Below, one piece after another: positions 1,290 to 19,433 of a DNA stretch of 33,210 bases. Location: contig QIKW01000155.1 of NCBI GenBank assembly GCA_003231975.1, forward strand, positions 1 to 33,210, read 5' to 3'. Both the position numbers and the translations under genes were made by a program. The notes beneath the pieces are model-generated. The model did not search any database and had not been told where the DNA came from. It saw only the letters and a list, made by a program, of their open reading frames with translations. Source of the DNA: Acidimicrobiia bacterium (lineage in GTDB: Bacteria > Actinomycetota > Acidimicrobiia > Acidimicrobiales > SZUA-35). Numbering within the stretch: the first letter of the stretch is position 1; the number at the start of each line of letters is the position of its first letter.

Positions 1290-1925
1290 CTAGGGCGCCA
1301 ACCTCTGCACCAACCAAGCCTGGTTGGGTTGCTGTTCGTACATCAGGCGGTCATGAAGACGGCTGGGCCTCCCTTGCCAAAATTCAACTGCTGACGGCAT
1401 CAGCCGAAAGCCGCCCCAATGTTCGGGCCTTGGCACTTCGCCCGGGAAGCGGCTGGCGCACCGGGCCACCTCGGCGGCCAACACCTCCCTGCTGGCAATA
1501 GTGCTGCTCTGCTGGGAGGCCCAGGCTCCCAGTTGTGCGCCGCGAGGGCGCAGCGCGAAATAGGCATCTGAGTCGGCGTTGCTTACCACCTCTACCTGGC
1601 CGGTGATGCACACCTGACGGTGCAGGCCCAACCACGAAAACGTCGCTGCCGCGTGGGGGTTGGCCGCAAGGTGTTGGCCCTTTCGGCTTCCATAGTTTGT
1701 GTAGAACTCAAATCCACCGCCCTCCAATCCCTTCAGTAGGACGTTGCGGGCGAACGGTCGACCAAGCTCGTCTGCGGTTGCCAGCACCATCGCGTTTGGC
1801 TCGTGCAGCCCGGCGTTGACCGCATCGTCAAACCAACGCTGAAACTGGTCAAGGGGATTAGCCGTCAGGTCAGTTTCATCCAGGCCTGCGGTTTCGTATT
1901 CGTGGCGCATTCGGGCCAGATCCAC
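1290..1925 (-). CDS. pdxH: Pyridoxamine 5'-phosphate oxidase
   Basis: This FMN-dependent oxidase converts pyridoxine or pyridoxamine 5'-phosphate to pyridoxal 5'-phosphate, the last step of vitamin B6 coenzyme synthesis and salvage. Family landmarks run in order: an N-terminal MRHEYETAGL segment, NPLDQFQRW, the VLLKG and FYTNYGSRKGQ flavin-binding stretches, RPRGAQLGAWAS, and the C-terminal WGGFRLMP...EFWQGRPSRLHDR...QRLAP signature. Length is about 211 residues, close to the 218 of E. coli PdxH. The start is uncertain: a GTG at 1925 gives the N-terminal residues normally aligned in the family, while the first ATG is at 1910. A reading frame continues upstream but runs into the divergent ABC gene and is unlikely to be translated. 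Confidence 0.93.
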   Translation of the reverse strand: MDLARMRHEYETAGLDETDLTANPLDQFQRWFDDAVNAGLHEPNAMVLATADELGRPFARNVLLKGLEGGGFEFYTNYGSRKGQHLAANPHAAATFSWLGLHRQVCITGQVEVVSNADSDAYFALRPRGAQLGAWASQQSSTIASREVLAAEVARCASRFPGEVPRPEHWGGFRLMPSAVEFWQGRPSRLHDRLMYEQQPNQAWLVQRLAP

Positions 1926-1964
1926 AGCACCATTCAAGCCGATGGCGGGCGATAGCGTGGCCTG

Positions 1965-2891
1965 GTGATCAAGCAGCCCTCTTCCCCCGAGGCCGAGGAG
2001 CCGATTGAGTTGGTTGACGTCACCCTCCAGCACGGCGACCTCACCGCCGTCTCCGAAGCCAACTTCGGGGTGGCCAGGGGCGAGGTGGTGGCCCTTGTTG
2101 GGCCAAACGGGGCGGGAAAGACAACGCTCATGGAAGCGATTCAGGGCTATCTGCGGCCTTCGGCGGGCAAGGTTCGGGTGTTCGGGCAGAACCCTGCCAC
2201 CAGCCGCGCAAACATAGCTGGGCGCTGGGGGGTGATGCCCCAGAATGGCGGCCTGCCGATGGGGCTTACCGTTGGCGAGTGTGTTGCCCTTTTCGCCGAA
2301 CTTCACGGTTGCTCAGTCGAGCCATCCGAGATTCTGAATTTGACCGGGTTGGCCGGTCTGGCCAAGCGTCGCTGGCGGCGGCTAAGCGGCGGCGAGCAAC
2401 AACGGCTCAGCCTTGCCATCGCCTTGTGCGGGGGCCAAGACCTGATGCTGCTTGATGAGCCAACAGCAGCGGTTGACTCAGCAGGCAGAGACCTGGTTCT
2501 GAATCTCATAACCCAGCGAGCCGCCAACGGCACCTCGGTTCTGCTGACCACCCACCGCTTCGACGACGTTGAACGGGTGGCATCCAGAGTTGTGATGATC
2601 AATCAGGGCAGGATCGTGTGCAATCAGTCTGTCGACTCCCTCACGGTGGACACCGAACACATCAGATTCACCGCCCCGGCAGAGCTTGACACACGGCGCC
2701 TGGCAGAATTGGTTGGGCCAGTGACCGAGAAATCGCCCGGTCGGTTCGAGGTGACCGTTGCGCCAGAGCCCGCCAACCTTGCTGCGGTTGTTTCGTGGCT
2801 TGCTGGTGAAGGGGTTGCGCCCGAGTTGGTTACCGCCGGGCGCACCTCGCTTGAGGCCCGATTCCGAGAACTAACAGGAGGCGCGGGATGA
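1965..2891 (+). CDS. ABC transporter ATP-binding protein
   Basis: This is the nucleotide-binding subunit of an ABC exporter, 308 residues. It shows a Walker A GPNGAGKTTL near residue 47, a Q-loop (MPQNGG), the signature LSGGEQQRLSLA, a Walker B LMLLDEPTAAVD and an H-loop LLTTHR. A C-terminal extension of about 90 residues follows, as in drug- and antibiotic-type ATPases that pair with ABC-2 permeases. The start is a GTG about 40 bp from the divergent pdxH start, with only a weak ribosome site. Its stop overlaps the permease start by four bases (ATGA), so the two are translationally coupled. The exported substrate cannot be told from the sequence. Confidence 0.9.
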   Translation: MIKQPSSPEAEEPIELVDVTLQHGDLTAVSEANFGVARGEVVALVGPNGAGKTTLMEAIQGYLRPSAGKVRVFGQNPATSRANIAGRWGVMPQNGGLPMGLTVGECVALFAELHGCSVEPSEILNLTGLAGLAKRRWRRLSGGEQQRLSLAIALCGGQDLMLLDEPTAAVDSAGRDLVLNLITQRAANGTSVLLTTHRFDDVERVASRVVMINQGRIVCNQSVDSLTVDTEHIRFTAPAELDTRRLAELVGPVTEKSPGRFEVTVAPEPANLAAVVSWLAGEGVAPELVTAGRTSLEARFRELTGGAG

Positions 2892-3607
2892 AACAAAGAG
2901 TTGCGGCGCTTGTTCGGGCCGACCTCAGATCTGCAATCCGAGACGGTGAACAGTTGCTGCTTACCTTTGGAATCCCCTTGGTTTTGCTGGTCTTCTTTAG
3001 CACCATTGACCTGCTGCCAACCGGAAACCGCGAACCTGTCGACTACTTGGCACCCGGCATTCTGGCCCTAGCGTTGCTGTCAATTGCGTTTGTTCGCTTG
3101 GCCATCGGCCTCGGGTTCGACCGAAGCTTCGGTGCCATCAAACGTTTCGCCGTTACCCCCCTTCGGGTTGGGGAGTTCCTGGCGGCGAAGGTGGCGGTCA
3201 CGATTGTGCTCTTCGCGGTCCAGATGATGCTGCTGGCAGCTGTCGGGCTGGCCCTCGGCTGGCAACCCAGCCTCAACTGGCTTCTAGCGGTGGCGGTTGG
3301 CCTAGGCGTGCTGGCCTTTATTGGCTTGGGTTTTGTGGTGGCCAGCCTCGCCGAAGGGCTCAAGGCGCTGGCCGTCGCCAACGCCCTCTACATAGCCCTG
3401 CTACTGCTCAGCGGCCTACTCTTCGAACTCGGTCGACTGCCCTCGTGGCTTCAGCCCGTGGTGAAGCTTTTGCCATCCACTGCCGTTGCCGAACTGTTTC
3501 GGGAAACCCTAGCCGGGGCCTCCGGCCCGTCTTGGGCCTGGCTGACCCTTGGGGCCTGGGCCGTGGCCGCTCCCCTTGCCGCCCTCCGCCTCTTCAAGTA
3601 CACCTAA
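2888..3607 (+). CDS. ABC-2 type transporter permease
   Basis: This 239-residue membrane protein has about six predicted hydrophobic helices and the ABC-2 layout. There is a short cytoplasmic N-terminus (VRADLRSAIRDGEQ), a first helix near residues 24-42, and the characteristic cytoplasmic segment GAIKRFAVTPLRVGEFLAAK before the next helices. It should form the membrane channel for the ATPase just upstream. The start is decided by an AGGAGG ribosome site at 2876-2881, six bases before the ATG, overlapping the stop of the ATPase gene. The substrate is unknown. Confidence 0.88.
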   Translation: MKQRVAALVRADLRSAIRDGEQLLLTFGIPLVLLVFFSTIDLLPTGNREPVDYLAPGILALALLSIAFVRLAIGLGFDRSFGAIKRFAVTPLRVGEFLAAKVAVTIVLFAVQMMLLAAVGLALGWQPSLNWLLAVAVGLGVLAFIGLGFVVASLAEGLKALAVANALYIALLLLSGLLFELGRLPSWLQPVVKLLPSTAVAELFRETLAGASGPSWAWLTLGAWAVAAPLAALRLFKYT

Positions 3608-3620
3608 CCAAGGCTGCCCG

Positions 3621-4637
3621 TTGCCATCCACCCGCACTCCTTCCTCCTGGCACAATCTCGCCGGCCTCCTCGTTGTGTTTGCTCTGCTGGCGGCTGCTTG
3701 CAGTGGACCCGACCAGGGGTCGGAACAGGCGGCCGAACAGGCAAGATCGTCTGGTTCCGGGCAACTGCATGTGGAAGGTCACCGAGGAGCCCGGGGCCTC
3801 AAGCCAGAAAACACTCTGCCAGGATTCGAAACAGCGTTAGACGTTGGCGTCACCACCTTGGAGCTTGACCTTCACTTCTTGGCCGACGGCCAAGTTGTGG
3901 TGTGGCACGACAAGTCGCTGGGATCCGACAAGTGCCGGTTCGCCGACCAGGTTGATCCGAACCGAGAGTTCCCTCAGGAAGGGGTACCGATTGCCTCCTT
4001 GACCGAGGCCGACCTCAAAGACTACGAGTGCGACCTGAACCCCGACCCTCGTCGCTTCCCCAATCAGGAGAACAGCCCAACCCAGATCTACGGGCACCAG
4101 TATCAGCCCATCACGTTGGCTGCCGTTTTTGACTTGGTTGATGCGTACGTCACCTCCCCAACCAAAACCGGGGAGCAGCGGGCGGGGGCCGCCGTTGTGC
4201 AGTTCAACATTGAGACAAAGCGAGACCCAGCCGACCCTGCCTCCATTGGCGACGGCTTTGACGGAGTCAATCCTGGCCCGTTCGAACTGGCTGTGCTCGC
4301 CGTTGTTGCAGCGGCCGATATGGCTGACCGTGTGGTCATCCAGAGTTTCGATCACCGGTCGTTGTGGGCGATCCGCTCGGTCGATGCCGACATTCGGTTG
4401 GCGGCCCTAACGGTGAACGAGGCACCTGACCTGGCCGCGTACGCGGCGGGCGGGGCCAGCATCTGGTCGCCAAACTTCCGGGCGATCAGTCCGGAGCTGA
4501 TTGCCGAAGCACACGCCGAGGGTCTGCTGGTAATCCCCTGGACTGTGAATGACCGCGAGGACATGCTTGCGGTAATTGCGCAAGGGGCCGACGGACTGAT
4601 TACCGACCGGCCCGACATCGCCGCTGCTCTTCCTTAG
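3621..4637 (+). CDS. Glycerophosphodiester phosphodiesterase lipoprotein
   Basis: The protein belongs to the GDPD family, which hydrolyses glycerophosphodiesters to sn-glycerol 3-phosphate and an alcohol. Catalytic landmarks are EGHRGARGLKPENT, then LELDLHFLADGQVVVWHD with its metal-binding acidic residues and general-acid histidine, and a C-terminal VNDREDM...GADGLITDRPD. The N-terminus is a lipoprotein signal peptide (LAGLLVVFALLAAAC) with an LAAC lipobox, so the enzyme should be anchored outside the membrane. I chose the TTG at 3621 because it leaves a normal signal peptide and follows the permease by 13 bp with an AAGG site. An in-frame ATG at 3549 would add 24 residues and overlap the permease. 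It probably belongs to the same operon as the ABC genes. Confidence 0.87.
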   Translation: MPSTRTPSSWHNLAGLLVVFALLAAACSGPDQGSEQAAEQARSSGSGQLHVEGHRGARGLKPENTLPGFETALDVGVTTLELDLHFLADGQVVVWHDKSLGSDKCRFADQVDPNREFPQEGVPIASLTEADLKDYECDLNPDPRRFPNQENSPTQIYGHQYQPITLAAVFDLVDAYVTSPTKTGEQRAGAAVVQFNIETKRDPADPASIGDGFDGVNPGPFELAVLAVVAAADMADRVVIQSFDHRSLWAIRSVDADIRLAALTVNEAPDLAAYAAGGASIWSPNFRAISPELIAEAHAEGLLVIPWTVNDREDMLAVIAQGADGLITDRPDIAAALP

Positions 4638-4640
4638 GCG

Positions 4641-5957
4641 TCAATCCACCAAATCGGCAACCCGTTTGGAAGACTTCCTGGTCTTCAGATCGAAGTGCCA
4701 CACCACCGTTGTGAGGGCCAACCCAATCATGATGTTGGTTTCTGTACCGCCGGTCCACAACTTCACGCCGGTGGAAAGAAGCGCGGCCGAAATGAGGATC
4801 CGCACCAGTGACCCCTCATAGGGGGCCTTCGCCGCGAACAGGCCTTGGATTTCGAATCGTTTCACGATGCTGAGCAGAACCATCAAGAACACAAAGCTCA
4901 GCCCGATCAGGGGTGCTTTCTGAACGAACCAGTCAAGCGTTCCAACATCCGCGGTTGGCAGTCCGTCCACCAACAACAGCGCAACTCCAGCCACAACCGC
5001 GGCAGTAAAATGCCACAGGTAGACACTCATCCCAACGCTGCCAAGGACAGCGACCGTTTTGAACGACTTGGCCGACTTTGTGAGCCAGGTGTTGATGGAA
5101 GGAGCCAAAAACAGAGCGGTTGAGCAATACGCGATGCCAAAGAGCATCAGCGCAATCGACGGAGGCTGCGTTGGTTCGAAGGTCTCCTGGCCGTCGGTCA
5201 CCATGGAAGCTCTCCACGGCCCAAGCTTGACGACCACATAGGTAGTGATCCACATCGTTGGCGCAATCACGGCCAACTGCCTGCGAGATGGCACAAAGCC
5301 GTCCTTCCAGGCGAAGCCCATGATCTGGAAGATCAACCAGCCAATGACCCAGTTCACACTTTGAATCAGCGGGACCCCCAGGATTCCAAGAACCTCGAAT
5401 GCAATGAACGCAGAACCGATGCCGGCAAAGAACGCCATTGGCCTCTTGCGAAACAGCGGCAGCGTGATCGGAGCGATCGCGGTGTCGATGGTGTAGTTGG
5501 CCAGGAACCACAGCGGTATGGCGGCCGCGGCTGCTCCCTGGAATGCCATATCACCAACGCCCAATGCAGAGCCTGCTCCCAAAGCCACAATCCAGAAGTA
5601 GGCCAGAATCATTGTTGGCAGCATCATGCGGCGAAGGCGATTCGCCACCCAGTCCTGAGGGGTTCCGCCCTTGCGGTTGTGGGAGTCAAGGGACACCGCT
5701 GACGAAAAGCCGCCTGCCAGGAAGAACAAAGGCATGACCTGAAAGGCCCAGGTGATCCAGGCCAGCGAGTAGTCGAATTCGAGAGCGTTCCCGGCAACAA
5801 TCCCGCCGTCATCGTCCTTGAAGACAACAATGGCCATCCAGTGGCCGAACGCCACGGCGACCATGGCTATTGCCTTATAGAAGTCAACCGCCCTGTTGCG
5901 GTCGGGCTTAACTTCAGAGACCAGGTCTCCAACATTGATGGTTTTTTCAGTCGACAT
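4641..5957 (-). CDS. Acyltransferase 3 family membrane protein
   Basis: This 438-residue polytopic protein has about ten hydrophobic helices. The N-terminal region reads PDRNRAVDFYKAIAMVAVAF followed by GHW, the arrangement of the acyltransferase-3 superfamily, in which an early Arg and a His in the first helix are important for moving acyl groups across or at the membrane. The following AWITWAFQVMPLFFLAGGFS stretch is also typical. Substrates in the family include sugars, peptidoglycan and lipids; nothing nearby narrows this down. It is a single gene: convergent with the GDPD gene (3 bp apart) and about 100 bp downstream of the oxidase operon on the same strand. The start ATG lies 17 residues before the conserved PDRNR motif. 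Confidence 0.8.
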   Translation of the reverse strand: MSTEKTINVGDLVSEVKPDRNRAVDFYKAIAMVAVAFGHWMAIVVFKDDDGGIVAGNALEFDYSLAWITWAFQVMPLFFLAGGFSSAVSLDSHNRKGGTPQDWVANRLRRMMLPTMILAYFWIVALGAGSALGVGDMAFQGAAAAAIPLWFLANYTIDTAIAPITLPLFRKRPMAFFAGIGSAFIAFEVLGILGVPLIQSVNWVIGWLIFQIMGFAWKDGFVPSRRQLAVIAPTMWITTYVVVKLGPWRASMVTDGQETFEPTQPPSIALMLFGIAYCSTALFLAPSINTWLTKSAKSFKTVAVLGSVGMSVYLWHFTAAVVAGVALLLVDGLPTADVGTLDWFVQKAPLIGLSFVFLMVLLSIVKRFEIQGLFAAKAPYEGSLVRILISAALLSTGVKLWTGGTETNIMIGLALTTVVWHFDLKTRKSSKRVADLVD

Positions 5958-6058: not shown

Positions 6059-6949
6059 CTAGCGGCTGAGGGCCTCAGAGGCCTCGGCGGAGTCTTGCGC
6101 CTCTCTATCGCGGGCGGTGCGATCAAGCCGAGCTTGGCGGTCCCGGTCGGTTTCCTCAATTGCCCACTTTGCGAAAATGAACACGATTATCAACCACAGG
6201 ACAAAGCCCCCGAGGAGCTTCATTACCAGTCCGGCAGCCTGCTGGTCTATTACGACGCTGATCCCGAAGAGCCGGTCGGGAGTGTCGTAGTTGGGGTAGA
6301 CAACTCCTTCGGCAAATAGCAGCCAAGCGCCCGGGATGGTTGGGATGATCGACATGGAAAACAGGTACAGGCACTGAAGCATCGGTGGCAGCCGCCACTC
6401 TGTGACCGCGCTGATAACCGGTTGCCACATCAACAAACCGGCACTGAAGATGGCCACGTGAAAGACAAAGTGGGCAGCGCCGTTGCTGGATGAAAGCTCA
6501 ACTACGGCAGACCAGTGAAGGAACAGCGCCACCGCGTTGAAGGTGATGCCGGCGAACAGCGGGCGAGAAACCGTTGCGAACCACCGCCAGAGCCGGGTCT
6601 CGGTGCCAAGGACAAGCTCGAGCAGCCAACGCGGGGTGGCCAACACGAAAGCCGCTGGCAGGAAGGTTGAGATAAGCATGTGCTGGAACATGTGCACCGC
6701 ATACAGGTGATCCTCGGCAATGTCATGAATCGGCCAGTCTGAGGCGGCCCACATGCCAAGCACTCCTGCCAGGTACCAGAGCTTCTGGCCGCGAGAGATC
6801 GGATCGAACCCAGCGGCAACTGCCTTTGGTTCCACCACCCGAGACGCAAACCAGGCAAGGGCGGCCGCGCCGAGAACCAGAATCCAGACCTCTGGATGAG
6901 CGTCCCACGGCACGGTGGCCACTTCTGCTTGTGACTGGGCAAAGACCAC
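6059..6949 (-). CDS. ctaG: Cytochrome c oxidase assembly protein, CtaG (caa3) family
   Basis: This is an integral membrane protein of about 296 residues with roughly seven helices, matching the caa3-type CtaG family needed for assembly of aa3/caa3 oxidases. Visible landmarks are HMFQHMLISTFLPAAFVLATP, the FLHW and FHVAIF histidine-containing helices, and YNxPDRLFGISVVIDQQAAG. The C-terminus is a charged, Arg/Asp/Glu-rich tail. It is the last gene of the eight-gene oxidase operon. The start is unsure: a GTG at 6949 lies just after the stop of the upstream gene, while a TTG at 6982 would give a 26-bp overlap. Neither has a strong ribosome site. Confidence 0.85.
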   Translation of the reverse strand: MVFAQSQAEVATVPWDAHPEVWILVLGAAALAWFASRVVEPKAVAAGFDPISRGQKLWYLAGVLGMWAASDWPIHDIAEDHLYAVHMFQHMLISTFLPAAFVLATPRWLLELVLGTETRLWRWFATVSRPLFAGITFNAVALFLHWSAVVELSSSNGAAHFVFHVAIFSAGLLMWQPVISAVTEWRLPPMLQCLYLFSMSIIPTIPGAWLLFAEGVVYPNYDTPDRLFGISVVIDQQAAGLVMKLLGGFVLWLIIVFIFAKWAIEETDRDRQARLDRTARDREAQDSAEASEALSR

Positions 6950-6956
6950 GGTCGGC

Positions 6957-7310
6957 TCAGATCTGAAAGTCAAAGGCGGCAATCATCACGATGTACACCA
7001 GCACAGCTGTCACGAGGCCGAAGCTGAAAAGGATTGTGAAAACATTCCCGTTTATGATCGACAGGTCGTATTTCAGGTGCATGAACCAGCCGGCAACGAG
7101 AACGAACTTCACAACCATCATGGCCAGCAGTGGGACAACCAGAGCCACACCATCTAAGGGGAGGTAGGACCAAAGCACCTCGACCGCTGTGAGCACAGCC
7201 AGAATAGCGAACACCTGCCAGTAGGCAGTTTCGGTTGGATGATCGCCATGGTCTGAGGAGTGACCCAGTCCGCCGTCGGCAACCGCTGTTTCAAGTGTTG
7301 TTTCAGCCAT
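6957..7310 (-). CDS. Cytochrome c oxidase subunit IV, prokaryotic (COX4_pro) type
   Basis: This small 117-residue membrane protein has three helices, like the bacterial subunit IV/CtaF/CyoD group. After a His/Asp-rich head (DGGLGHSSDHGDHPTETAYW) come the hydrophobic segments. The second contains VVKFVLVAGWFMHLKYD, the recognisable family motif, and the third is LVTAVLVYIVMIAAF. It is a non-catalytic subunit thought to help assemble or stabilise subunits I and II. It follows ctaE by 9 bp and precedes ctaG, a common order in caa3 operons. A second, CtaF-like protein is encoded at 11450-12226, so the operon has two different candidates for subunit IV. Confidence 0.87.
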   Translation of the reverse strand: MAETTLETAVADGGLGHSSDHGDHPTETAYWQVFAILAVLTAVEVLWSYLPLDGVALVVPLLAMMVVKFVLVAGWFMHLKYDLSIINGNVFTILFSFGLVTAVLVYIVMIAAFDFQI

Positions 7311-7319: not shown

Positions 7320-8117
7320 CTAGGGAATGAGGTAGACGATAGTGAAGATAAGCACCCAAACGATGTCAACGAAATGCCAGTAAAGCCCTACCAGTTCAAC
7401 GGTTTCGGCCCGATCAGATCGGAGCTTGCCCCGAAAGGAAAGGATGAGCAACGAAACCAGCATCAGGATGCCGCCGGTTACGTGAATACCGTGGAAGCCG
7501 GTGAGGGTATAGAACGCCGAGCCGAACAGGCTGCCGCCAAAGGTGAGGCCTTCACGGTAGAAGGCGGTGAACTCATAGATCTGGCCGCCGACGAAGATGG
7601 AGCCCAACAGGGCGGTGGCGCCCAACCAGATCCGCTGGTTCTTGTAGTCTCCATCAACGGTTGCCTTGTGGGCCAAGACCATGCACAGGGAACTCATGAG
7701 AAGCACAAATGAGCTGAACGAGGTGAAGGGAATGTCGAAAATCGGCTCAACCGATCCCACTTCTGCCATCTCTTGAAAGATGTACGGAAGGTCTGACAGC
7801 GTGCCGCGGACTCCCGCGTCGGCCATGGTCTGAACTTGCTCAGCAGGCAGCAGACCTTCAATGACGTCGGGGTTGCCAACAACCAACTCGCTCAAGAAGC
7901 GGGCCTTCGAGAGAAGGAACGTGCTTATGAGGGCGCCGAACAGCAAGCATTCCGAACCCAGAAACAGCCACATTGCCAGCTTCATGTTTGAGAGGCCCAA
8001 GGAGGTTTCGGGGTGCTCTGAGTGGGCGCCTGCCTCGGCAGCCACTACCTCCTGGGGCTCTTTCATGGCATCGGGTTCAGCTGCTGCGTCGACGGGGTCG
8101 TCGGCCAGGTCGGTCAT
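7320..8117 (-). CDS. ctaE: Cytochrome c oxidase subunit III
   Basis: This 265-residue membrane protein is a canonical subunit III. After an acidic/Ala-rich N-terminal tail of about 45 residues it reads MKLAMWLFLGSECLLFGALI, with the conserved glutamate, then NQRIWLGATALLGSIFVGGQ, YTLTGFHGIHVTGGI and VGLYWHFVDIVWVLIF, with the His and Asp residues typical of the family. Subunit III stabilises the catalytic subunit and proton uptake. The loop between helices 1 and 2 is longer than usual, with about 60 residues between STFLLSKA and DIPFTSFSS. The start ATG overlaps the ctaD stop in an ATGA, so the two are coupled. Confidence 0.94.
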   Translation of the reverse strand: MTDLADDPVDAAAEPDAMKEPQEVVAAEAGAHSEHPETSLGLSNMKLAMWLFLGSECLLFGALISTFLLSKARFLSELVVGNPDVIEGLLPAEQVQTMADAGVRGTLSDLPYIFQEMAEVGSVEPIFDIPFTSFSSFVLLMSSLCMVLAHKATVDGDYKNQRIWLGATALLGSIFVGGQIYEFTAFYREGLTFGGSLFGSAFYTLTGFHGIHVTGGILMLVSLLILSFRGKLRSDRAETVELVGLYWHFVDIVWVLIFTIVYLIP

Positions 8118-10111
8118 GAAGAAGCTCCAACCAATTCATGATCATCCCCATCCGAACCCTCGGGTTCGTGATCGTCGCCGTCGTGATGGCCTTCAACGTC
8201 GGGGTCATCTGCTGGCTCGAGGGCCCAGCCGAACAAGGCAACCATCATCAAAACGATGCCTGGAATAGTCAGCCACAGGGTGAAGATCACGCCGTAGCCG
8301 ATCACCGGCAAGCTGAACGCCAGGACTATTGGCCAATACGAAGGCGCTGGCAGGTGAACGCCTTCAGCGTTACCGGGCTGGGCCAGCTCGGCTCCGGTTG
8401 CCACCCGCTTGAGACGATGGTTCTCGTCTTCAACGAACTTGCGGTGCCAGAAATCATCGAGGTCGGTGACGACGGGGGTGTAGTCGAAGTTGTGCTCGGG
8501 GGTTGGGCTTTGCACCGACCACTCGAGCGTGCGGGCATCCCAAGGATCGGGGCCCGGATCGGGTCGACCTGCGGCCTTCCACCGGTTGTAGGAGATGAAG
8601 GCGTTGACCAGAACCCAGAGTGTTGAGATCGCCAGAATGAACGAGCCAATAGTGGCGACCATGTTCCAGGTGTTGAAACCCATTGCGTCGTCGTAGGCGT
8701 ACATTCGGCGCGGCATTCCCTGCAACCCCAGAATGTGCATTGGCCCAAACGTGAGGTTGAATCCAAGCACCATCCCCCAGAAGTTGAACTTGCCATGGGC
8801 CTCGTTGAGCTTGTAGCCAAACACCTTTGGCCACCAGAAGTAGAAACCGGCAATGAAACCGAACAGCGCCCCACCAAACAGCACGTAGTGGAAGTGGGCC
8901 ACGATGTAGTAGGTGTCTGTTTGCTGGGTGTCCCAAGGGGCAATGGCGTGGGACACCCCGGACAAACCACCGATGGTGAACTGGGTGACCAGGCCAATGG
9001 AAAACAGCATGGCGGTATTGAGGGTGAGTCTGCCGCCCCACAAGGTTGCCAGCCAGTTCAAGACTTTCACCCCGGTTGGCACCGCAATGAACATGGTTGC
9101 GAAGGCAAAACCGGAAACCGTGAGCGGTCCAAGCCCGGAAACGAACATGTGGTGGGCCCACACGCCCCAGCCCATGAATCCAATGGCGATGCCCGAAAAC
9201 ACCATAAACGGATACCCAAAGAGCGGTTTGCGAGCGAACGCGGGTATCACCTCGGACACAATTCCGAACGCCGGCAGGATCATCAAGTAGACCTCGGGAT
9301 GACCAAAGATCCAGAAGAGGTGCTGCCAGAGCAGCGGGTCAGCTCCCAGTTTGACATCAAAGAAGCTGGCACCGAAATTGCGATCCATCAGCAGAAGAAC
9401 CTGGGCCACGGTGAGGACCGGGATGGCGAACAGCAAAAGGAACTGGGTGACCAGGGTCATCCACACAAATACCGGCATACGCATCAGGGTCATGCCGGGG
9501 GCTCGCATGTTGAGCACCGTTGTGATCAGATTCACTGCTCCGGTGAGGGACCCTATGCCTGCAATCATCAGGCCCATGTTCCAGAAATCGATGCCAGTTG
9601 ACGGTGAGTAGATGATGCCGTTGTTCGGTGCGTAGTTGAACCAGCCACCGTCGGCTCCGCCACCAAGGAACCAACTGGTGTTGAGCATCAGGCCGCCTGC
9701 CAAGAACACCCAGAAACTGAACGCGTTGATCCGGGGGAAGGCTACGTCTCGGGCCCCAACCTGAAGCGGCATCAGATAGTTGGCGAAAGCGGCACCTATT
9801 GGCATGACAACCAGGAAAACCATCACGGTTCCATGCATCGTGAAGATCCGGTTGTAGGCGTCGGCCGACAAGAACGTGTTGTTCGGTGTCGCCAACTGGA
9901 TGCGTATCAGCAAAGCGGCCAGGCCACCGATCAAAAGGAAGAACATGGCAGCACTGCCATACATGATTCCGATCTTCTTATGGTCAACGGTGGTTAGCCA
10001 ATTCTTGAGCCCCGTTTGGTTTCGGGGCCTGGTGAACACGCCAAGTGGGCGTTCCACCGCGGGGTCATCTCCTGACGGTAAGGCCAGGGTTTCGTTTTCG
10101 ATGATCGCCAT
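8114..10111 (-). CDS. ctaD: Cytochrome c oxidase subunit I, with C-terminal two-helix extension
   Basis: This is the catalytic subunit of an aa3/caa3 oxidase, reducing O2 to water and pumping protons; 665 residues. All ligands are present: H93 and H408 (heme a), H406 (heme a3), H271, H320 and H321 (CuB), Y275 and E273 in WIFGHPEVY, and D122 at the mouth of the D channel. After the usual 12 helices and the DPWDARTLEWSVQSPTP signature (about 522-538) there are two more helices at about 592-632, then a His/Asp-rich tail. That makes it some 100 residues longer than a typical CtaD. The ATG at 10111 follows the ctaC stop by 19 bp with a GGAG site; an in-frame upstream start would overlap ctaC. Confidence 0.96.
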   Translation of the reverse strand: MAIIENETLALPSGDDPAVERPLGVFTRPRNQTGLKNWLTTVDHKKIGIMYGSAAMFFLLIGGLAALLIRIQLATPNNTFLSADAYNRIFTMHGTVMVFLVVMPIGAAFANYLMPLQVGARDVAFPRINAFSFWVFLAGGLMLNTSWFLGGGADGGWFNYAPNNGIIYSPSTGIDFWNMGLMIAGIGSLTGAVNLITTVLNMRAPGMTLMRMPVFVWMTLVTQFLLLFAIPVLTVAQVLLLMDRNFGASFFDVKLGADPLLWQHLFWIFGHPEVYLMILPAFGIVSEVIPAFARKPLFGYPFMVFSGIAIGFMGWGVWAHHMFVSGLGPLTVSGFAFATMFIAVPTGVKVLNWLATLWGGRLTLNTAMLFSIGLVTQFTIGGLSGVSHAIAPWDTQQTDTYYIVAHFHYVLFGGALFGFIAGFYFWWPKVFGYKLNEAHGKFNFWGMVLGFNLTFGPMHILGLQGMPRRMYAYDDAMGFNTWNMVATIGSFILAISTLWVLVNAFISYNRWKAAGRPDPGPDPWDARTLEWSVQSPTPEHNFDYTPVVTDLDDFWHRKFVEDENHRLKRVATGAELAQPGNAEGVHLPAPSYWPIVLAFSLPVIGYGVIFTLWLTIPGIVLMMVALFGWALEPADDPDVEGHHDGDDHEPEGSDGDDHELVGASS

Positions 10112-10130
10112 CGTGTCGGTGGGCTCCTGC

Positions 10131-11453
10131 TTAGTCGAGGGTCGCAAGATATGCGACTAGTGCTTCAAGGTCTTGTTCTGACAACTGAGGGAAGGCGGGC
10201 ATGCCAAGTGAATTGTCTGGGTCCATAGCCTTCTGACTTGGCGCGTCCTTGATCCACCGTTTCAGAGCGGCGTCATTGAAACGGAGGCTGCCGTCAAGAT
10301 CCAGATATCCCTCGCCATCGCCGCCAACCTCTTCCAGGAGGTTGTCGTCGTCGGGGTCAACCTCGACGTACTGGCTGTAGGTCGCACCGGCGAATACCGC
10401 CCGTGAGGCAAAGTTGGTGAGGTCTGGGGCCGCTCCAGAGGCCAACTCGTCTGCGGTGAAGTCCTTGGCGTAGGTGAAGGCCACCCCATCAGGGTCATTC
10501 GGATCTTCGTTCACAATGTGGCAGGAAGCGCACAACGCCTGGAAAAGGGCTCGACCGTTGGCAGCTAAGGCCTCTTCTTCGCCGCCGGTGGCGGAGGGAA
10601 TATCAGCCGGTTCGGACTGATCGGCCAGCCACTGGGCGAAGTCGTCGGGCTCCAAGGCGACCACGCTCATGCGCATCCCGGCGTGGGAAAGACCGCAGAA
10701 TTCGGTGCACCAGCCCGTGTATTCGCCAACATCGGGCGACTCGATCGACCAGGTGTTCATTCTTCCCGGCACAGCATCGCGTTTGCCGTTAAGCCTTGGA
10801 ATCCAGAAGGAGTGGATCACGTCACGTGAGGTGATCACCAGATCAATCTGCTCGCCCGTTGGAATCACTAGTTGGTTAGGAACTGCGAGGTCGTCGTCGT
10901 CGAGCGCAATGTCGAGGGGCCATTCAACGTCGTCGAGGTCGCCGCCCTCGCCGTTTGGTCCATAGATCTCGCCATCCCCGTCGGCGTCTTCAAAGAAGCC
11001 GTCTCCGTCGATGTCGTAGCGGTACTCCCACCACCACTGGTTGCCAATGACCATTACGTCAAGCTCGCCGGGTTCGTTCTTCTCTTCGAGGTCCCAGATC
11101 AGCACGATGGTTGGAATGGTGATTGCCAGCAGGATCAGTGCGGGTACAGCGGTCCACGTCCACTCGAGTTTCGGGTTTCCGTGAACCTGTTCTGGCAAGT
11201 CATCGGGGTCATAATCTTCCGGCTTCACCCGGTTCTTGATAGCTAGGCCTATGCCTCCGCCAACCACCAGGACGAAGACCACGCCCATGATGGGCCAAAT
11301 CCACAGGGCTAGGTTGTTGATGGCTTCGGCTTTGGGACCGCGTGGCTCGAACGTATTGAGCGGCTTGTCCTCGGCGCACGCTGAAAGCAGCACCGCCACA
11401 GCGCCGACGAGGAGACCCGTTCGGGCCAGGCGGCGTTTGGGAAACTTTCTCAA
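10131..11453 (-). CDS. ctaC: Cytochrome c oxidase subunit II fused to cytochrome c
   Basis: This 440-residue lipoprotein passes electrons from cytochrome c to subunit I. In order: a signal peptide with lipobox LLSAC (C26), two helices (about 48-72 and 101-120), QWWWEYRYD, a CuA site (H214, C249, C253, H257, M260), and a cytochrome c domain with CASCH (308-312) and a Met ligand in GMPAFP (M418), as in caa3 oxidases. Two acidic insertions are unusual: residues 147-190, with an EF-hand-like loop DIDGDGFFEDAD, and residues about 362-390 inside the cytochrome c domain. The start is TTG, overlapping the upstream stop (TTGA). Confidence 0.95.
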   Translation of the reverse strand: MRKFPKRRLARTGLLVGAVAVLLSACAEDKPLNTFEPRGPKAEAINNLALWIWPIMGVVFVLVVGGGIGLAIKNRVKPEDYDPDDLPEQVHGNPKLEWTWTAVPALILLAITIPTIVLIWDLEEKNEPGELDVMVIGNQWWWEYRYDIDGDGFFEDADGDGEIYGPNGEGGDLDDVEWPLDIALDDDDLAVPNQLVIPTGEQIDLVITSRDVIHSFWIPRLNGKRDAVPGRMNTWSIESPDVGEYTGWCTEFCGLSHAGMRMSVVALEPDDFAQWLADQSEPADIPSATGGEEEALAANGRALFQALCASCHIVNEDPNDPDGVAFTYAKDFTADELASGAAPDLTNFASRAVFAGATYSQYVEVDPDDDNLLEEVGGDGEGYLDLDGSLRFNDAALKRWIKDAPSQKAMDPDNSLGMPAFPQLSEQDLEALVAYLATLD

Positions 11454-12226
11454 CCCTCTTCTCCTGAACTCTCTGATTCTGGCGGATGTTCTTCAAAGCT
11501 TCTGGGTCCGACTGCGGCGCTAACGATGCCCCCAACCAGTATTACGAAGGCCCCGAATGCAACTATGCCTGCGATCGCGTTCTTTTTCAGGTCAACCTTT
11601 GCCATGAACACAGCACCGGCAAAAACGAAGATGGTGAGAATTGAGCCTGCGACAACCGCTCCCTCCTTGGAAACCGTGAGGAAGATTCGTGAAACTGCCA
11701 CCGCTACTACCGTTATGGCCAACATGCTGAGCATCGGAATCTCGATCGGCCCAAGCATCCGGGACCGAACGACCTGGTTTACGCCGTGGTCGCCGGTTGC
11801 CCGATCGGACCAGGCCAGAATTGCCCACATCACCGCAACCACGGCCAAAACTCCGATGCCAAGGGCGAAGAACACTTTCGACAACGCAAGCCCAATAACT
11901 AATGCTGCCACACCAAAAGCCGTTATTGGCCCCCAGTACGAAACACCCGATGGCGGCCTGACGGCCGGAACCAAGGCAACCCCGGCCCGGGCGGCCATTG
12001 TTTCAGCATCTCCATCTCGAACCAATACCGATACCAAGCCCAGAACAAACAAGGCAACCATGGCAAAGGCCAGCACGGTGTAGCCCAAGTGGTCCCCGAC
12101 ACCACCTTTGTAGCCGGCGCTGACTACACCGACCGGCCCACCGCCGGTGACAAGGCCATAGACCACAGCGCCCAGCAGCGCGCCGGTCATCAGACCGAAG
12201 AAGAACTTGGAACCCCAGGTGAACAT
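11450..12226 (-). CDS. Membrane protein with CtaF-like N-terminal half
   Basis: This 258-residue protein has about seven helices and lies between the subunit III relative and ctaC. Its first 140 residues follow the layout of actinobacterial subunit IV (CtaF): a first helix with KFFF...VVYGLVTGG, a second helix, then a hydrophilic loop leading to SYWGPITAFGVAALVIGLAL, comparable to the SWWP-type start of the last two CtaF helices. The C-terminal half (about 155-240) adds three more helices that I do not recognise, then an acidic tail (PPESESSGEEG). The CtaF likeness is from memory of the mycobacterial protein and needs a profile search. The position strongly suggests an oxidase subunit or assembly factor. 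Confidence 0.65.
   Translation of the reverse strand: MFTWGSKFFFGLMTGALLGAVVYGLVTGGGPVGVVSAGYKGGVGDHLGYTVLAFAMVALFVLGLVSVLVRDGDAETMAARAGVALVPAVRPPSGVSYWGPITAFGVAALVIGLALSKVFFALGIGVLAVVAVMWAILAWSDRATGDHGVNQVVRSRMLGPIEIPMLSMLAITVVAVAVSRIFLTVSKEGAVVAGSILTIFVFAGAVFMAKVDLKKNAIAGIVAFGAFVILVGGIVSAAVGPRSFEEHPPESESSGEEG
11461..11465 (-). promoter_or_regulatory. Ribosome binding site fixing the ctaC TTG start
   Basis: Reading the minus strand, AGGAG lies seven bases before the TTG at 11453-11451. The TTG begins the lipoprotein signal peptide of CtaC and overlaps the stop of the preceding gene, so this site decides an otherwise rare start codon. Confidence 0.7.
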
Positions 12227-12236: not shown

Positions 12237-12848
12237 CTACTTGGTGATGTAGACGGCGTACCAGACAGCCATATAGAGGGCGACCGTTACGTACCAGAAC
12301 AGGGCGGCCCCATACACGCCCTCGCGATCTTTAGAGCCGTAGTTGCCAGCAAGGGTGCGGAGAGCTATGACGCCAACGTAGAGCATCGCAGCTCCAACAA
12401 TGGCCAGATGGGTTCCGATGACCGCATAGATCAGCGGGGCCTTCGAATCGTCGGCCGCCCCAAGATCCATCAAGCTGAGAAGGAATGCGGTTTGGGCGAT
12501 GTAGGCCACGCCCATGACAAGCACAAGACCAAGGGCAATGTAGGTGTTCGGACGATCATCACGACCAATTGATCCAACGGCCCAGACCATGATCAGAATG
12601 GAGAGCACCAAGGTAACGGCCATCATGTTGGGTTGTGTGAGCGGGATCACCACCCCGCTTGGCAGCCATTGCTCGCCGGTGGCGATTACGTCGGCCCGGG
12701 TTTTCAGGTAGATGCCAAGCAGCCCGGACATCAGCATGATGGTGGCGGCAGATGCCAGCGCTGTGCCGATCAGTAGGAGCCTGGGGCGGGCCGGAGGAGC
12801 GGCCGTGAGCTGCGCCGGGATGGTCTCGCGGACAGATATAGCGGTCAT
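12237..12848 (-). CDS. Divergent heme-copper oxidase subunit III-like protein
   Basis: This 203-residue protein has five helices and lines up with the last five helices of CtaE from this operon. LLLIGTALASAATIMLMSGL aligns with the MWLFLGSECLLFGALI helix, QPNMMAVTLVLSILIMVWAV with helix 2, GTHLAIVGAAMLYVGVIAL with GFHGIHVTGGILML, and ALFWYVTVALYMAVWYAVYI with LYWHFVDIVWVLIF. The family's conserved Glu, His and Asp residues are lost: GSE becomes GTA, and YWHFVD becomes FWYVTV. Its ATG overlaps the stop of the upstream subunit I relative (ATGA), so the pair is coupled. It probably partners that protein rather than CtaD, but this is inference. Confidence 0.78.
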   Translation of the reverse strand: MTAISVRETIPAQLTAAPPARPRLLLIGTALASAATIMLMSGLLGIYLKTRADVIATGEQWLPSGVVIPLTQPNMMAVTLVLSILIMVWAVGSIGRDDRPNTYIALGLVLVMGVAYIAQTAFLLSLMDLGAADDSKAPLIYAVIGTHLAIVGAAMLYVGVIALRTLAGNYGSKDREGVYGAALFWYVTVALYMAVWYAVYITK

Positions 12849-14545
12849 AGTTGTGCCTCAGAGTTGCCAGCAAGAGGGGTTGGCGACGAAACGATGGGCG
12901 GCTCTTCGAAGTTGCCCGCAATGGGTGGCGAAGCGGTTGCCCACTCAAGTGTGAGTCCTCGCCATGGCTCGGCCGAGGAACCGACCCGACCGGCAACAGC
13001 GGCAAGGAGATTTAGGAGTAGGAGGCCCACCGCGATTGCCATGAGGCCCGCACCGATCACGCTGAGCACGTTAAGGATCTCGACACCAGATTGGGGTGCG
13101 CTGTCAAGTTCTGGAAGCGCCGGCTGATCGAGGAAGGCAGCAACGATGTTGGCCGCTCCCCACAAAACCGCGCCTCCGGCAACAGCAATCGTTGCCAGCA
13201 AACCAACACGATTATCCAGGGAACGACCAAAGATCTTGATCGCCCAGTGATGTATTCCGCTGATGATCGCAAGGATCACCGAGCCGAGGACCAATGCTCG
13301 AATTCCCTCATGAAACGAAGTACCGAACAGATCGAAAGAGTAGTCGATTCGGTCTCCGCTCAACTCTTCGATGAAACCCAGAAACGGGTCTACGAGGCCA
13401 AGCAGCGCGGCCAAGCTGCCTGCCAGCAAAAGCAAGCCGGACGCCAGAGCCGCCACAAGCGGAGTGGTGAGCTTGGCTCTGCCTTTTCCGAGGCTGGGCC
13501 CCGCTAGCGCCAGAACCAGAATTACCGGCACAACTGCGAACAGGGTTGCGGCCACCAACAACGCGTTGTCGAAGGCAATTGGGCGGCCCCGCCAGGCGAA
13601 ACTGAGCATTTCTGCTCCGTAGGCGACGAACCCGTAGAGCGCCAGCACGGCCAAAATGACCTTGTGAGACCGGGCCGTGCGTTTGGTGTGAACTGAAATG
13701 ACATCAACCAGCATTCCGAGAGCAGGCACGGCGATCCAGTAAATCGCCGGGACAAGATTTACCGAGTTGGCGATTGACACCAAGACTGTGCGGTCGGCCT
13801 GGGTTGGCAGGAAGCCGTACTTGGTGTCGAGGTAGGCAAGAACCAGTTCGGCCAGAAGGACCGGAAGAGCCAAAAGGCTGCCAATCGCAAAAACGAAGAA
13901 GCCCCAGGTGGTTGCCGGCACATCTTCCAAGGACATTCCGGTGGCTCTGGCTCCAAGCACGGTGGTGGCCACACAAATCAAGGCCCACAGAAGGCTGACC
14001 ACCACCACGCCGAGGGCGAGGATCCAGAGGATCACATAGTCGAACCGACCCCCTCCAGGCCCGCCATTCATGATGTACGACAGGATCAGAATGCCAGACC
14101 CGACCAGCCATGACCAGAAAGCCGCAGCAGCTCCCCTGGCAAAAGCGATGCTCGCTGCGCCAACTTGCAGCGGAACCAGAAAGGTGGCGATTCCCACCAG
14201 AATTGGAACGATCCCTCCAAACAGGGTGAGGTCACGGCCGATCGACCAGATCTGGGTGAGCTGGTCTTGGTCTTTGGCAATGGCAAAGGAATCCAGGTCG
14301 ACCAGCTCGAGCTGCGCCACTAACGACATGACGATCCCGGCTGTGAGGAACAGTGAGCCAAACCCGATCCAGAGCCGTCCAATGGTCTTGTGGTCGCCGC
14401 TGCCAAGAACTGCGTCGATCGAGTTTGCTGGAGCGGCAGTGGTGGCGGACACCAAACCCGATGACTGTTCAGAGTCTGTCGGATCAGCTCCCGACGGATC
14501 TGAATCTGGGCGGGTTTCTGGCGATGCCGTTTCTGTCAATGCCAT
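12845..14545 (-). CDS. Ligand-less cytochrome oxidase subunit I paralogue
   Basis: An intact 566-residue protein with about 12 helices, homologous to CtaD of the same operon. GDHKTIGRLW matches VDHKKIGIMY, FLVPLQVGA matches YLMPLQVGA, VPALGMLVDVI matches LPAFGIVSEVI, and the C-terminal EPWRGLTLEWATASPP matches DPWDARTLEWSVQSPT. Aligned residue by residue, the metal ligands are gone: H93 to G103, H271 to V265, H320/H321 to L314/S315, H406/H408 to G414/R416. E273 becomes A267 and D122 becomes S132; the active-site tyrosine (Y269) remains. It cannot bind heme a, heme a3 or CuB in the usual way. It is the first gene of the oxidase operon, with an AAGG site before its ATG. A structural or assembly role is inferred. 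Confidence 0.85.
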   Translation of the reverse strand: MALTETASPETRPDSDPSGADPTDSEQSSGLVSATTAAPANSIDAVLGSGDHKTIGRLWIGFGSLFLTAGIVMSLVAQLELVDLDSFAIAKDQDQLTQIWSIGRDLTLFGGIVPILVGIATFLVPLQVGAASIAFARGAAAAFWSWLVGSGILILSYIMNGGPGGGRFDYVILWILALGVVVVSLLWALICVATTVLGARATGMSLEDVPATTWGFFVFAIGSLLALPVLLAELVLAYLDTKYGFLPTQADRTVLVSIANSVNLVPAIYWIAVPALGMLVDVISVHTKRTARSHKVILAVLALYGFVAYGAEMLSFAWRGRPIAFDNALLVAATLFAVVPVILVLALAGPSLGKGRAKLTTPLVAALASGLLLLAGSLAALLGLVDPFLGFIEELSGDRIDYSFDLFGTSFHEGIRALVLGSVILAIISGIHHWAIKIFGRSLDNRVGLLATIAVAGGAVLWGAANIVAAFLDQPALPELDSAPQSGVEILNVLSVIGAGLMAIAVGLLLLNLLAAVAGRVGSSAEPWRGLTLEWATASPPIAGNFEEPPIVSSPTPLAGNSEAQL

Positions 14546-14683: not shown

Positions 14684-15589
14684 TCAGGTCCCCCATCCGA
14701 TTAGTTGATCCACCGCGACAGCTCCGAACAGCAGCGTGAGGTGGGTGATCGAGAAGCCGAAGTAGCGAATGGCCAGAGCCTCCAGCCGGATCGGATCGGT
14801 TTCTCGAACAAGCTGCAGGGCACCGCCTGAGAACATGGCCCCAACAACGATTGCGACCCCCAGGTAGATCCAGCCGGTATCGGCCACGGGCCAAAGAGCC
14901 AGGCTGACGGCCCAAACCACCAGGGAATAGACCAGCATTTGGGTAGCAGTGCGGCGCTGGCCGTGGACCACGGGAAACATCGGCACGCCTGCCGCCGCGT
15001 AGTCGTCTTTGTACCGGATGGCCAAAGCCCAAAAATGGGGCGGGGTCCAGAAAAAGACAACGCCGAACAACAAGATGGCGGGCCACTGAACCGAGTTGGT
15101 AACAGCTGACCACCCAATCAAAACCGGCATCGCCCCCGCAGCCCCGCCTATAACAATGTTCTGGGTGGAGGTTCGCTTCAGCCATATTGTGTAGACGAAG
15201 ACGTAGAAAAGCGTTGCCGCGATGGCCAGCAGAGCCGAAAGCGGGTTGACCAGGCTCCATAGCCACACAAAGGCAACCACTTCCAGTCCAATGGCAAACA
15301 CCAACGCCTCGATTGGCTGAATCTCGCCGGTGACCAGGGGCCTGTTCCTGGTGCGCTCCATCTGGGCATCGATGTCACGATCGACGACCATGTTCAGGGC
15401 ATTGGCACCGCCAGCGGCCATCGTGCCGCCGACCACGGTTGCCACCATCAACCAAACGGACGGCAGGCCTCGCTGGGCCAGAACCATCGTTGGCACAGTG
15501 CTGACCAAAAGCAGCTCAATGATGCGTGGCTTGGTGAGCGCTATGAACGCACTGGTTCGCGTTCGAGGGGACAAAGCGGTAACAGCCAC
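14684..15589 (-). CDS. ctaB: Protoheme IX farnesyltransferase (heme O synthase)
   Basis: This UbiA-family membrane prenyltransferase adds a farnesyl group to protoheme to make heme O, the precursor of heme A. Motifs are ALTKPRIIELLLVSTVPTM, the Asp-rich NMVVDRDIDAQMERTRNRPL, and the second FFWTPPHFWALAIRYKDDYA loop; eight to nine helices follow. With the GTG at 15589 the protein is 301 residues, normal for the family. The open frame extends to 15712, but that would overlap the divergent ctaA start, so an internal GTG or TTG is more likely; no good ribosome site picks one. It lies upstream of the oxidase operon on the same strand and divergent from ctaA. Confidence 0.93.
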   Translation of the reverse strand: MAVTALSPRTRTSAFIALTKPRIIELLLVSTVPTMVLAQRGLPSVWLMVATVVGGTMAAGGANALNMVVDRDIDAQMERTRNRPLVTGEIQPIEALVFAIGLEVVAFVWLWSLVNPLSALLAIAATLFYVFVYTIWLKRTSTQNIVIGGAAGAMPVLIGWSAVTNSVQWPAILLFGVVFFWTPPHFWALAIRYKDDYAAAGVPMFPVVHGQRRTATQMLVYSLVVWAVSLALWPVADTGWIYLGVAIVVGAMFSGGALQLVRETDPIRLEALAIRYFGFSITHLTLLFGAVAVDQLIGWGT

Positions 15590-15688
15590 TTTCCAGATCG
15601 TAACCAAGGTTCCCGATTGAGGGATGGCCGATTGTGAAAACGTTAACAAGATGACCTCAGCGCCCTCTTTGGGACCTACCGTGGAAGG

Positions 15689-16639
15689 ATGGTCAGTGGT
15701 CGCCAAAGCCACGGTGTAAGCCCCCAGCGCTACCTCAGGGTTGTGTTCGTGGCTGCCGTCCTTCTCACCTTGATCATCTTCACTGGCGCCGCTGTTCGCC
15801 TAACCGAATCCGGGCTGGGATGTGAGAACTGGCCAAAATGCACAGACGAGAAGCTCGTGCCCGAGTGGGCTTTCAACAGTTGGGTTGAATTCGGCAACCG
15901 GCTGCTTTCCGGAGTGGTCGCCATCGGCACGATCGCCGCTGCACTCACTGCCTACCGTCGCGTACCGCGGCGCACCGACCTGATCAGATGGTCTTGGCTT
16001 CTGGTTGCGCTGGTGGCAGCGCAGGTCGTATTGGGAGGAATCACGGTCAGGCTGGAACTTCACCCACTGATCGTTGGCTCTCACTTTTTGCTGTCAATCG
16101 TTCTGCTCTGGAATGTTGCCGTCGTCTGGTTCAAGGCCCAGGGTGGGGTTGGCAAACCCGAGCCTCTGGTTGGCCGTTCGCTGTTGAACCACAGCCTGGC
16201 CACGGTAATCGCTGCATCTGTACTGCTGATCAGCGGCACTGTCGTTACCGGAACCGGACCGAACAGTGGAGACTTCCGGGCCACCAGATTCAACCTCGAT
16301 CTCGAGATCGTCGCCAGAATTCACAGCCTTACCGCATGGACGTTCTTGGCGCTGTTGGTTTCGCTGGCCTTGCGGCTCCAGCGATCTCAGCTTTCCTACC
16401 GCCTTGCCCAACCGGCGATACTGGCAAGCGTGGCCCAGGGAGCGTTGGGATACTGGCAATTCGCAACCGGCGTACCTCCTGGATTGGTGATGTTTCACAT
16501 CGTTGGTGCCGTCACCGTCTGGTTCTTGGTACTGCGAATGCACTTCGGCATGTACCGGCGGCCACGAGAGGTTGGCGGCATTTCCCCGCCTCCCGCTGTC
16601 GGTGAGACCCAATACGAGGCAAACTTTCTCCATGGGTGA
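15689..16639 (+). CDS. ctaA: Heme A synthase
   Basis: The protein oxidises the C8 methyl of heme O to a formyl group, giving heme A for CtaD. It is a CtaA/COX15-family membrane protein of 316 residues with about eight helices. Landmarks are [15 protein letters not shown] with its extracellular cysteine pair, [11 protein letters not shown] with the conserved Glu, the [14 protein letters not shown] and [10 protein letters not shown] helices, and [17 protein letters not shown], which supply heme-ligand histidines. The start is an ATG preceded by GGAAGG (15683-15688), perhaps too close to be ideal. Its stop overlaps clpS by eight bases. It is divergent from ctaB, with about 100 bp between that must hold promoters for both. 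Confidence 0.93.
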
Positions 16640-19082: not shown

Positions 19083-19155
19083 GCCCCCATCGTTCAGTGG
19101 CCTAGGACACTGCCCTTTCACGGCAGGAACACGGGTTCGAATCCCGTTGGGGGTG
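19083..19155 (+). tRNA. tRNA-Glu (anticodon TTC)
   Basis: The 73-nt cloverleaf has a GCCCCCA acceptor arm pairing with TGGGGGT (G1-U72 wobble), a GTTC D-arm start, a CTTTCAC anticodon loop with anticodon TTC at 19117-19119, and a standard GGTTCGAATCC T-arm. The discriminator is G and the CCA end is not encoded. It is the first of three tRNA genes read in the same direction. Confidence 0.95.
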
Positions 19156-19241
19156 CAAAAACTAATCGGCTGGAACAACTTTCCATGCCCTATAGTCACC
19201 AGTCTCTGGAAAGCCGGGTTCGCTCGGCCAACAGTGGCAAA

Positions 19242-19316
19242 GGTCCCGTAGTGCAGTCTGGAGTGCACGCCGCCCTGTCAAGGCGGAGGTCGCGAGTTCA
19301 AATCTCGTCGGGACCG
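19242..19316 (+). tRNA. tRNA-Asp (anticodon GTC)
   Basis: The 75-nt gene has acceptor GGTCCCG pairing with CGGGACC, a D-stem GTGC/GCAC, an anticodon stem CCGCC/GGCGG around loop CTGTCAA (anticodon GTC at 19277-19279), and a T-arm with loop TTCAAAT. The discriminator is G and CCA is not encoded. Confidence 0.95.
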
Positions 19317-19342
19317 CGGAAGACTCTCGTGGTCTTCTTCCG
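19317..19342 (+). terminator. Hairpin between tRNA-Asp and tRNA-Phe
   Basis: CGGAAGA (19317-19323) can pair with TCTTCCG (19336-19342); an alternative is GAAGAC with GTCTTC. It lies directly after tRNA-Asp and could be a processing structure or a weak terminator in the tRNA transcript. There is no T-tract. Confidence 0.35.
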
Positions 19343-19360
19343 AGGCCTTAAGGGCCCCGG

Positions 19361-19433
19361 GGTCGGGTAGCTCAGTCGGCAGAGCGGCCGCCTGAAAAGC
19401 GGTAGGTCACCGGATCGACGCCGGTCCCGACCA
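19361..19433 (+). tRNA. tRNA-Phe (anticodon GAA), atypical T-loop
   Basis: The 73-nt cloverleaf has acceptor GGTCGGG pairing with CCCGACC, a normal GCTC D-stem, an anticodon stem around CTGAAAA (anticodon GAA at 19394-19396), and discriminator A. CCA is not properly encoded. The T-stem ACCGG/CCGGT is perfect, but the loop reads ATCGACG: position 54, almost always T, is A. The rest of the tRNA is regular. Confidence 0.9.

Follow-up and report, generated by a model that had tools for sequence, protein, structure and literature searches.

A subunit I homologue stripped of its redox ligands at the front of a cytochrome oxidase operon in Acidimicrobiales

The first structural gene of a cytochrome oxidase operon in Acidimicrobiales encodes a full-length relative of the catalytic subunit CtaD in which the heme and copper ligands have been replaced. 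We call this protein I'; with a degenerate subunit III homologue (III') and a third membrane protein (X) it makes up a trio encoded ahead of a complete live oxidase. I' is a heme-copper oxidase subunit I by fold and by descent, and by every catalytic feature tested it is not an oxidase: the fold has been retained and the chemistry is gone. Our observations cover the fold, which ligands were lost and in what order, an operon with translational overlaps, the co-occurrence with one type of oxidase, purifying selection and a set of newly fixed residues. To our knowledge, the ligands of heme-copper oxidase subunit I are usually taken as invariant, and the open-licence literature that we searched yielded no account of a subunit I without ligands next to an oxidase. 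The window, by which we mean the whole stretch of 33,210 nucleotides that was analysed, contains the following genes of the locus.

15689..16639, plus strand: ctaA, heme A synthase, divergent (COX15-CtaA, 1e-24)
14684..15712, minus strand: ctaB, heme O synthase, directly upstream of I' (UbiA, 2e-70)
12845..14545, minus strand: I', ligand-less subunit I homologue, 566 aa (Pfam COX1, 8e-35; ligand table, AlphaFold2 model and fold match)
12237..12848, minus strand: III', degenerate subunit III homologue, 203 aa (COX3, 3.4e-5; NF050119, 2.3e-9)
11450..12226, minus strand: X, CtaF-like PF12270 domain plus three transmembrane helices and a His/acidic tail, 258 aa (orthologue matches and alignment)
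10131..11453, minus strand: ctaC, live subunit II with CuA motif and fused cytochrome c (COX2, 1.8e-21; Cytochrom_C, 9e-10; CoxB, 1.6e-50)
8114..10147, minus strand: ctaD, live subunit I with all ligands (COX1, 2.6e-156; PF12270, 3.4e-8; TIGR02891 over its cut-off)
7320..8117, minus strand: ctaE, live subunit III (COX3, 6e-23)
6957..7310, minus strand: ctaF-type small subunit IV (COX4_pro, 1.2e-10)
6059..6982, minus strand: ctaG, CuB assembly factor (Caa3_CtaG, 9e-36)

The local order is ctaB, the trio I'-III'-X, and the live oxidase ctaC-D-E-F-G. The start codon of III' and the stop codon of I' overlap by 4 nt (ATGA), and the stop of X overlaps the start of ctaC. A preliminary description of this DNA had placed I' at 12845-14545, which is correct, the strand being minus. 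It had also put I' at the head of the oxidase operon; I' is the first structural gene, but the transcript need not start there, as ctaB precedes it by 138 nt on the same strand. The picture of a lone dead gene stands as far as I' itself is dead, but not as far as it is alone, since the degenerate III' and the CtaF-like X accompany it. Elsewhere in the window, three tRNA genes lie on the plus strand at 19083-19433, and the live CtaD (8114-10147) carries a C-terminal fused Cyt_c_ox_IV (PF12270) domain besides the separate small subunit IV gene.

The reading frame of I', read from 14545 to 12845 on the minus strand, opens with ATG and runs through 566 codons without an internal stop. Its match to PF00115 (E 8e-35) scores 120.9 bits against a gathering cut-off of 34.8, which places it in the superfamily, while its score with the CtaD equivalog TIGR02891, 155.2 bits, falls far under the cut-off of 670.75. 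The closest solved structures are actinobacterial CtaD proteins with 22-25% identity. AlphaFold2 run with no alignment gave a pLDDT of 50; with a 34-sequence alignment, the input for the model used here, it predicted the twelve membrane helices of a subunit I at a pLDDT of 89.2 and a pTM of 0.91. This model superposes on Mycobacterium smegmatis CtaD (6adq_F) with a Z score of 39.7 over 496 aligned residues at 3.2 Å. The preliminary claim of a full-length, intact CtaD relative is thereby borne out, and structure prediction of the protein alone, one of its proposed checks, returned the subunit I fold.

All the ligand substitutions first proposed for I' proved correct. Of the heme a ligands, the helix II His is G103 and the helix X His is R416; the heme a3 ligand position in helix X is G414, and the CuB positions are occupied by V265, L314 and S315. 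The D-pathway Asp and the Glu are replaced by S132 and A267, respectively, and the K-pathway Lys position holds a hydrophobic residue. The CuB triad is kept in none of 73 I' sequences, against all of about 100 co-aligned live CtaD save one fragment at a contig end, a difference that excludes chance. The active-site tyrosine, said to remain, is present here as Y269, but only 47 of the 73 I' sequences have Tyr at this position.

One part of this assignment, the register of helix X, needed care. Profile-profile alignment and phmmer place H412 of I' opposite the second helix X His by way of a 4-residue gap within the membrane helix. However, the landmarks W..K.FG that follow helix X align gaplessly between I' and CtaD, and heme-bearing relatives of I' have [AG]H.H together with the W..K.FG landmarks at identical spacing; the gapless register, with G414 and R416 at the ligand sites, is fixed by these two observations. 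Histidines at the ligand positions, which on realignment would have overturned the preliminary claim, are absent in this register, and MAFFT, which shifts helix X by one, still leaves no His at the ligand position. As an alternative ligand H412 was rejected: in the window's family about 20 of 32 members have it, as does a fraction of 0.33 of all hemeless I', and helix II, whose ligand His is absent throughout that family, offers it no partner.

The two companions of I' are more diverged from their live counterparts. III' barely passes the Pfam COX3 cut-off (E 3.4e-5) and stays well short of the cut-off of the actinobacterial CtaE model NF050119 (E 2.3e-9). The X of the window has no Pfam match of its own; its orthologue in L081 matches PF12270 at E 2.9e-5. 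Orthologues from L048, L046, L042 and L098 match Cupredoxin_1/Copper-bind, a domain absent from the window's X, and the C-terminal cupredoxin of the early-branch orthologues carries the type-1 copper motif C..H..M. Orthologues that have no cupredoxin end in a tail rich in His, Asp and Glu (11450-11520 in the window; HHGEEHSEDHSED in L051), which could bind metal or could be a mere vestigial linker. A cupredoxin seems to persist as a domain without copper ligands in the X of an Ilumatobacter-type family (L081:6122-7345, L041, L099, L100).

We then looked at how widely the arrangement occurs. The order I'-III'-X-ctaC-ctaD can be read directly in 73 loci, with ctaB upstream in nearly all; 22 further loci are cut by contig ends, affected by ORF-start artefacts or, in one case (L098), interrupted by an insertion, making 95 I' loci in all, some of them from the same genomes. 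The full-length trio was found solely in Acidimicrobiales and always beside the main-type oxidase. Full-length X occurs in many families of this order and nowhere else among 198 genomes of the class and 246 of the phylum. For the Acidimicrobiales that have no trio (L175, L176, L179-L182, L075, L076, L087), the main-type operon was not found as far as we searched, and their only ctaD is of another, shorter type. The paralogue is conserved, as had been claimed: it recurs beside ctaC across the order, and among the members of the order checked those with the same oxidase all have I'. The cultured type strain Ilumatobacter coccineum YM16-304 (L081; PMC3910706) very probably carries the trio.

Several neighbouring arrangements deserve mention. 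In L098, the earliest I' branch, X and ctaC are separated by an inserted ZnuABC-type metal ABC transporter and a BNR-repeat protein (589-5065). A TlpA/ResA-like thioredoxin gene with a WC.PC-type motif lies between X and ctaC in early heme-bearing lineages (L044:5055-5600, L046 at about 5186-5634, L048:5091-5729, L050:4726-5295); no such gene was seen in the window. L089 and L090 contain a second ctaC-ctaD type, which is shorter and lies close to a QcrB-type cytochrome b gene of the same genomes (QcrB at G045:C98 and G038:C1). Outside the order, the oxidase operons of other orders and classes encode a separate protein homologous to the three-helix half of X, with a blue-copper domain where examined within the class. 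Within the class, the ctaCDEFG operon of the other orders closes with this three-helix protein and its plastocyanin-like domain (L077:6923-7684, L078:2403-3173, L109:3159-3944, L110:8108-8887); other classes of the phylum have homologues of the helix portion close to ctaD. Such a stand-alone protein is possibly an unrecognised membrane-bound blue-copper donor for these oxidases.

Phylogenetic analysis placed the 73 I' sequences in a single clade with support of 100/100, outside the clade of the neighbouring ctaD and joined to the tree of live CtaD by a long stem (0.89). A recent tandem duplication of ctaD was rejected as the origin of I', which falls outside all CtaD clades sampled in the phylum, a placement to be read with the caution due to long branches. 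The tree indicates that I' is an ancient, separate subunit I lineage and not a local ctaD duplicate.

Within this lineage, eight of the 73 sequences keep the low-spin heme a His pair, five of them together with the heme a3 His, and in six of these eight loci the type-1 copper site of X is intact. All other I' loci, leaving aside L049 with a sequence too short for scoring, have neither the heme a pair nor the copper site. With live CtaD as the root, the branching order is L098, then L044, L046, L047 and L048 (with L050), then L042, then L035, then all hemeless I', that of the window included. One loss of CuB, one loss of the low-spin pair and two changes in the copper domain are needed on the tree. 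As reconstructed from it, CuB was lost first, then heme and blue copper, and repacking with new conserved residues followed. The correlation between heme pair and cupredoxin (six of eight against none of the rest) was set aside as a statistical argument, being a single transition on the tree, for which the independent-pairs test has one pair and cannot reach significance.

To judge whether I' is decaying, we estimated substitution rates. In the less saturated pairs from the window's family, I' has a dN/dS of roughly 0.16-0.28. CtaD gives 0.04-0.12 and III' 0.09-0.19, the latter close to live III; dS approaches or exceeds 1 in these pairs, making the values rough. In other families, pairs with a low estimated dS gave values for I' of up to 0.6, with CtaD rising alongside. 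I' evolves about three times faster than CtaD. On these rates neutral decay of I' is excluded and the gene is under purifying selection; dN/dS was one of the checks that the preliminary description had proposed. Four residues have become fixed in hemeless I', R57 (92%), R104 (81%), A139 (94%) and W146 (92%); live CtaD has them seldom or not at all, heme-bearing I' mostly lacks them, and R104 adjoins the position that the helix II His once held.

Measured against CtaD, conservation is also unevenly distributed along I': it is kept in helices II-V and the C-terminal segment and lost in helices VI-VIII (p 8e-12). In A-type oxidases the D-pathway runs along the first half of subunit I, which also borders subunit III; the binuclear centre and the K-pathway belong to the second half, which faces subunit II. 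Between them, III' and the CtaF-like part of X give the trio an equivalent of subunit III, whereas it has no subunit II, and the pattern of kept and lost conservation fits such a composition. In M. smegmatis, CtaE and CtaF together make up subunit III (PMC8361435). Evolutionary distances of I' and III' covary after correction for both CtaB and CtaD (r 0.30); with CtaD in the background, the covariation of I' is weak with CtaC (0.14) and not significant with X (0.10). The covariation of I' with CtaD itself (0.61 against CtaB) was discarded as a signal of coupling, since CtaD might just be the best clock; once CtaD serves as background, only the I'-III' pair is clear.

It is probable that I' serves the working enzyme as a partner, in its structure or in its assembly. 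We give about an even chance to the explanation that the trio is a pseudo-oxidase protomer free of cofactors, a structural partner bound to live CtaC-CtaD-CtaE. It would be made together with the live oxidase and would stay attached permanently in an asymmetric I/I' arrangement, much as heme-less CydB sits beside CydA; we infer this physical binding, the dimer and a role that is structural rather than catalytic, which might consist in stability, docking to complex III or shielding. By a likely route, an ancient second subunit I lineage would have dropped CuB first and kept its heme and a blue-copper domain as an electron-transfer unit, reliance on the protein surface would have outlasted the redox role, and the heme and copper sites would then have vanished as the core was repacked. 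A fuller version of this history is tentative and, taken whole, somewhat unlikely. It supposes that the trio of the early branches may be a working oxidase relative without CuB, equipped with low-spin heme, in most cases the heme a3 His, and membrane-anchored type-1 copper, which supplies or buffers electrons for the caa3 oxidase next to it, and that in the window's lineage the complex, stripped of its cofactors, may have become the obligate dead half of a heterodimeric oxidase, which would be the first redox-to-structural conversion in the heme-copper superfamily.

The operon and co-occurrence evidence is equally compatible with an assembly factor, that is, a scaffold or chaperone for the live enzyme that is absent from the finished oxidase. 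I' might mimic subunit I to hold subunit III or II, or receive heme A from CtaA/CtaB, and the His/acidic tail of X might pass copper. Such a role would suit a trio encoded directly after ctaB and in one operon with ctaG, the abundance of His, Asp and Glu in the X tails and the thioredoxins that adjoin X in some early branches. Yet the tail is of simple composition and partly an old linker to the lost cupredoxin, sister orders build the same type of oxidase without the trio, three full-size membrane proteins would be a heavy device, and the residues fixed in the core point to a permanent protein with a stable fold; on balance we hold an assembly factor to be unlikely, though worth serious consideration. 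Slow decay, in which a redundant duplicate retained by an essential operon is turning into a pseudogene, would account for the faster evolution of I', but it is largely refuted and hardly credible. The frame of I' is neither broken nor evolving neutrally; frames are intact in essentially all genomes, with one TGA among the I' matches, dN/dS is about 0.2, residues have been newly fixed, and the lineage is monophyletic on very long branches.

The trio could also sit as an adaptor between complex III (QcrABC) and the live oxidase, the dead copy serving as a docking spacer. The trio is essentially I' plus a full subunit III equivalent, and in M. smegmatis the III2-IV contacts run via CtaE/CtaF and QcrB, so that surfaces of the CtaE/CtaF type already serve such contacts in mycobacteria (PMC8361435); a QcrB-type cytochrome b was found in 23 of the 24 genomes tested, early branches included. 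However, CtaC here has its own cytochrome c and the qcr genes lie outside the operon, and we regard an adaptor as improbable. A separate complex with a function of its own is very improbable. In the early branches it might be a CuB-less heme/blue-copper electron carrier or sensor, for which the low-spin heme pair and, in six loci, the type-1 copper site speak, and in the window's lineage it might have a non-redox task such as ion or lipid handling; purifying selection would agree with either. Against it, the trio was never found away from the oxidase operon in the genomes sampled, and hemeless I' has no D- or K-channel residue at all. The notion that heme-bearing I' substitutes for complex III was rejected because QcrB is present in those same genomes; NrfD of the alternative complex III is patchy in its presence.

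If I' is a real subunit, it would reveal a role of the subunit I scaffold beyond chemistry. Intermediates survive in living lineages, which makes the order of cofactor loss readable, and the cultured type strain makes I' accessible to experiment. For genome annotation, pipelines that count COX1 matches as terminal oxidases over-count in Acidimicrobiales.

Compared with CtaD of the A1 aa3-type (6adq_F), I' shares the fold over its whole length and the landmarks PLQ.GA, R..GM and the C-terminal TLEW..SPP..NF. It differs in having no heme a, heme a3, CuB or D- and K-pathway residues, in an identity of about 24% and in forming a separate clade. Its companions can be set beside CtaE and CtaF: III' is a CtaE homologue and the N-terminal half of X is a CtaF-like (PF12270) domain. 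Unlike CtaE and CtaF, both lie far under the family cut-offs, and X is fused to a three-helix anchor whose counterpart in other orders and classes is encoded separately, as a membrane protein bearing a blue-copper domain. Other respiratory enzymes have paralogues that lack cofactors; for heme-copper oxidase subunit I, the literature that we could search describes none. CydB of the bd oxidases has the fold of CydA, carries no heme and is related to CydA by a pseudo-twofold (PMC6853902). I' resembles CydB in being a heme-less paralogue of the core subunit encoded in the same operon as the catalytic one, a parallel that would be one of function and not of descent. The fold of CydB is unrelated to that of I', and while bd oxidases as a rule have the CydA/CydB pair, I' occurs in a single order only; unlike in CydA/CydB (PMC6853902), the stepwise loss of cofactors is still visible in the I' lineage.
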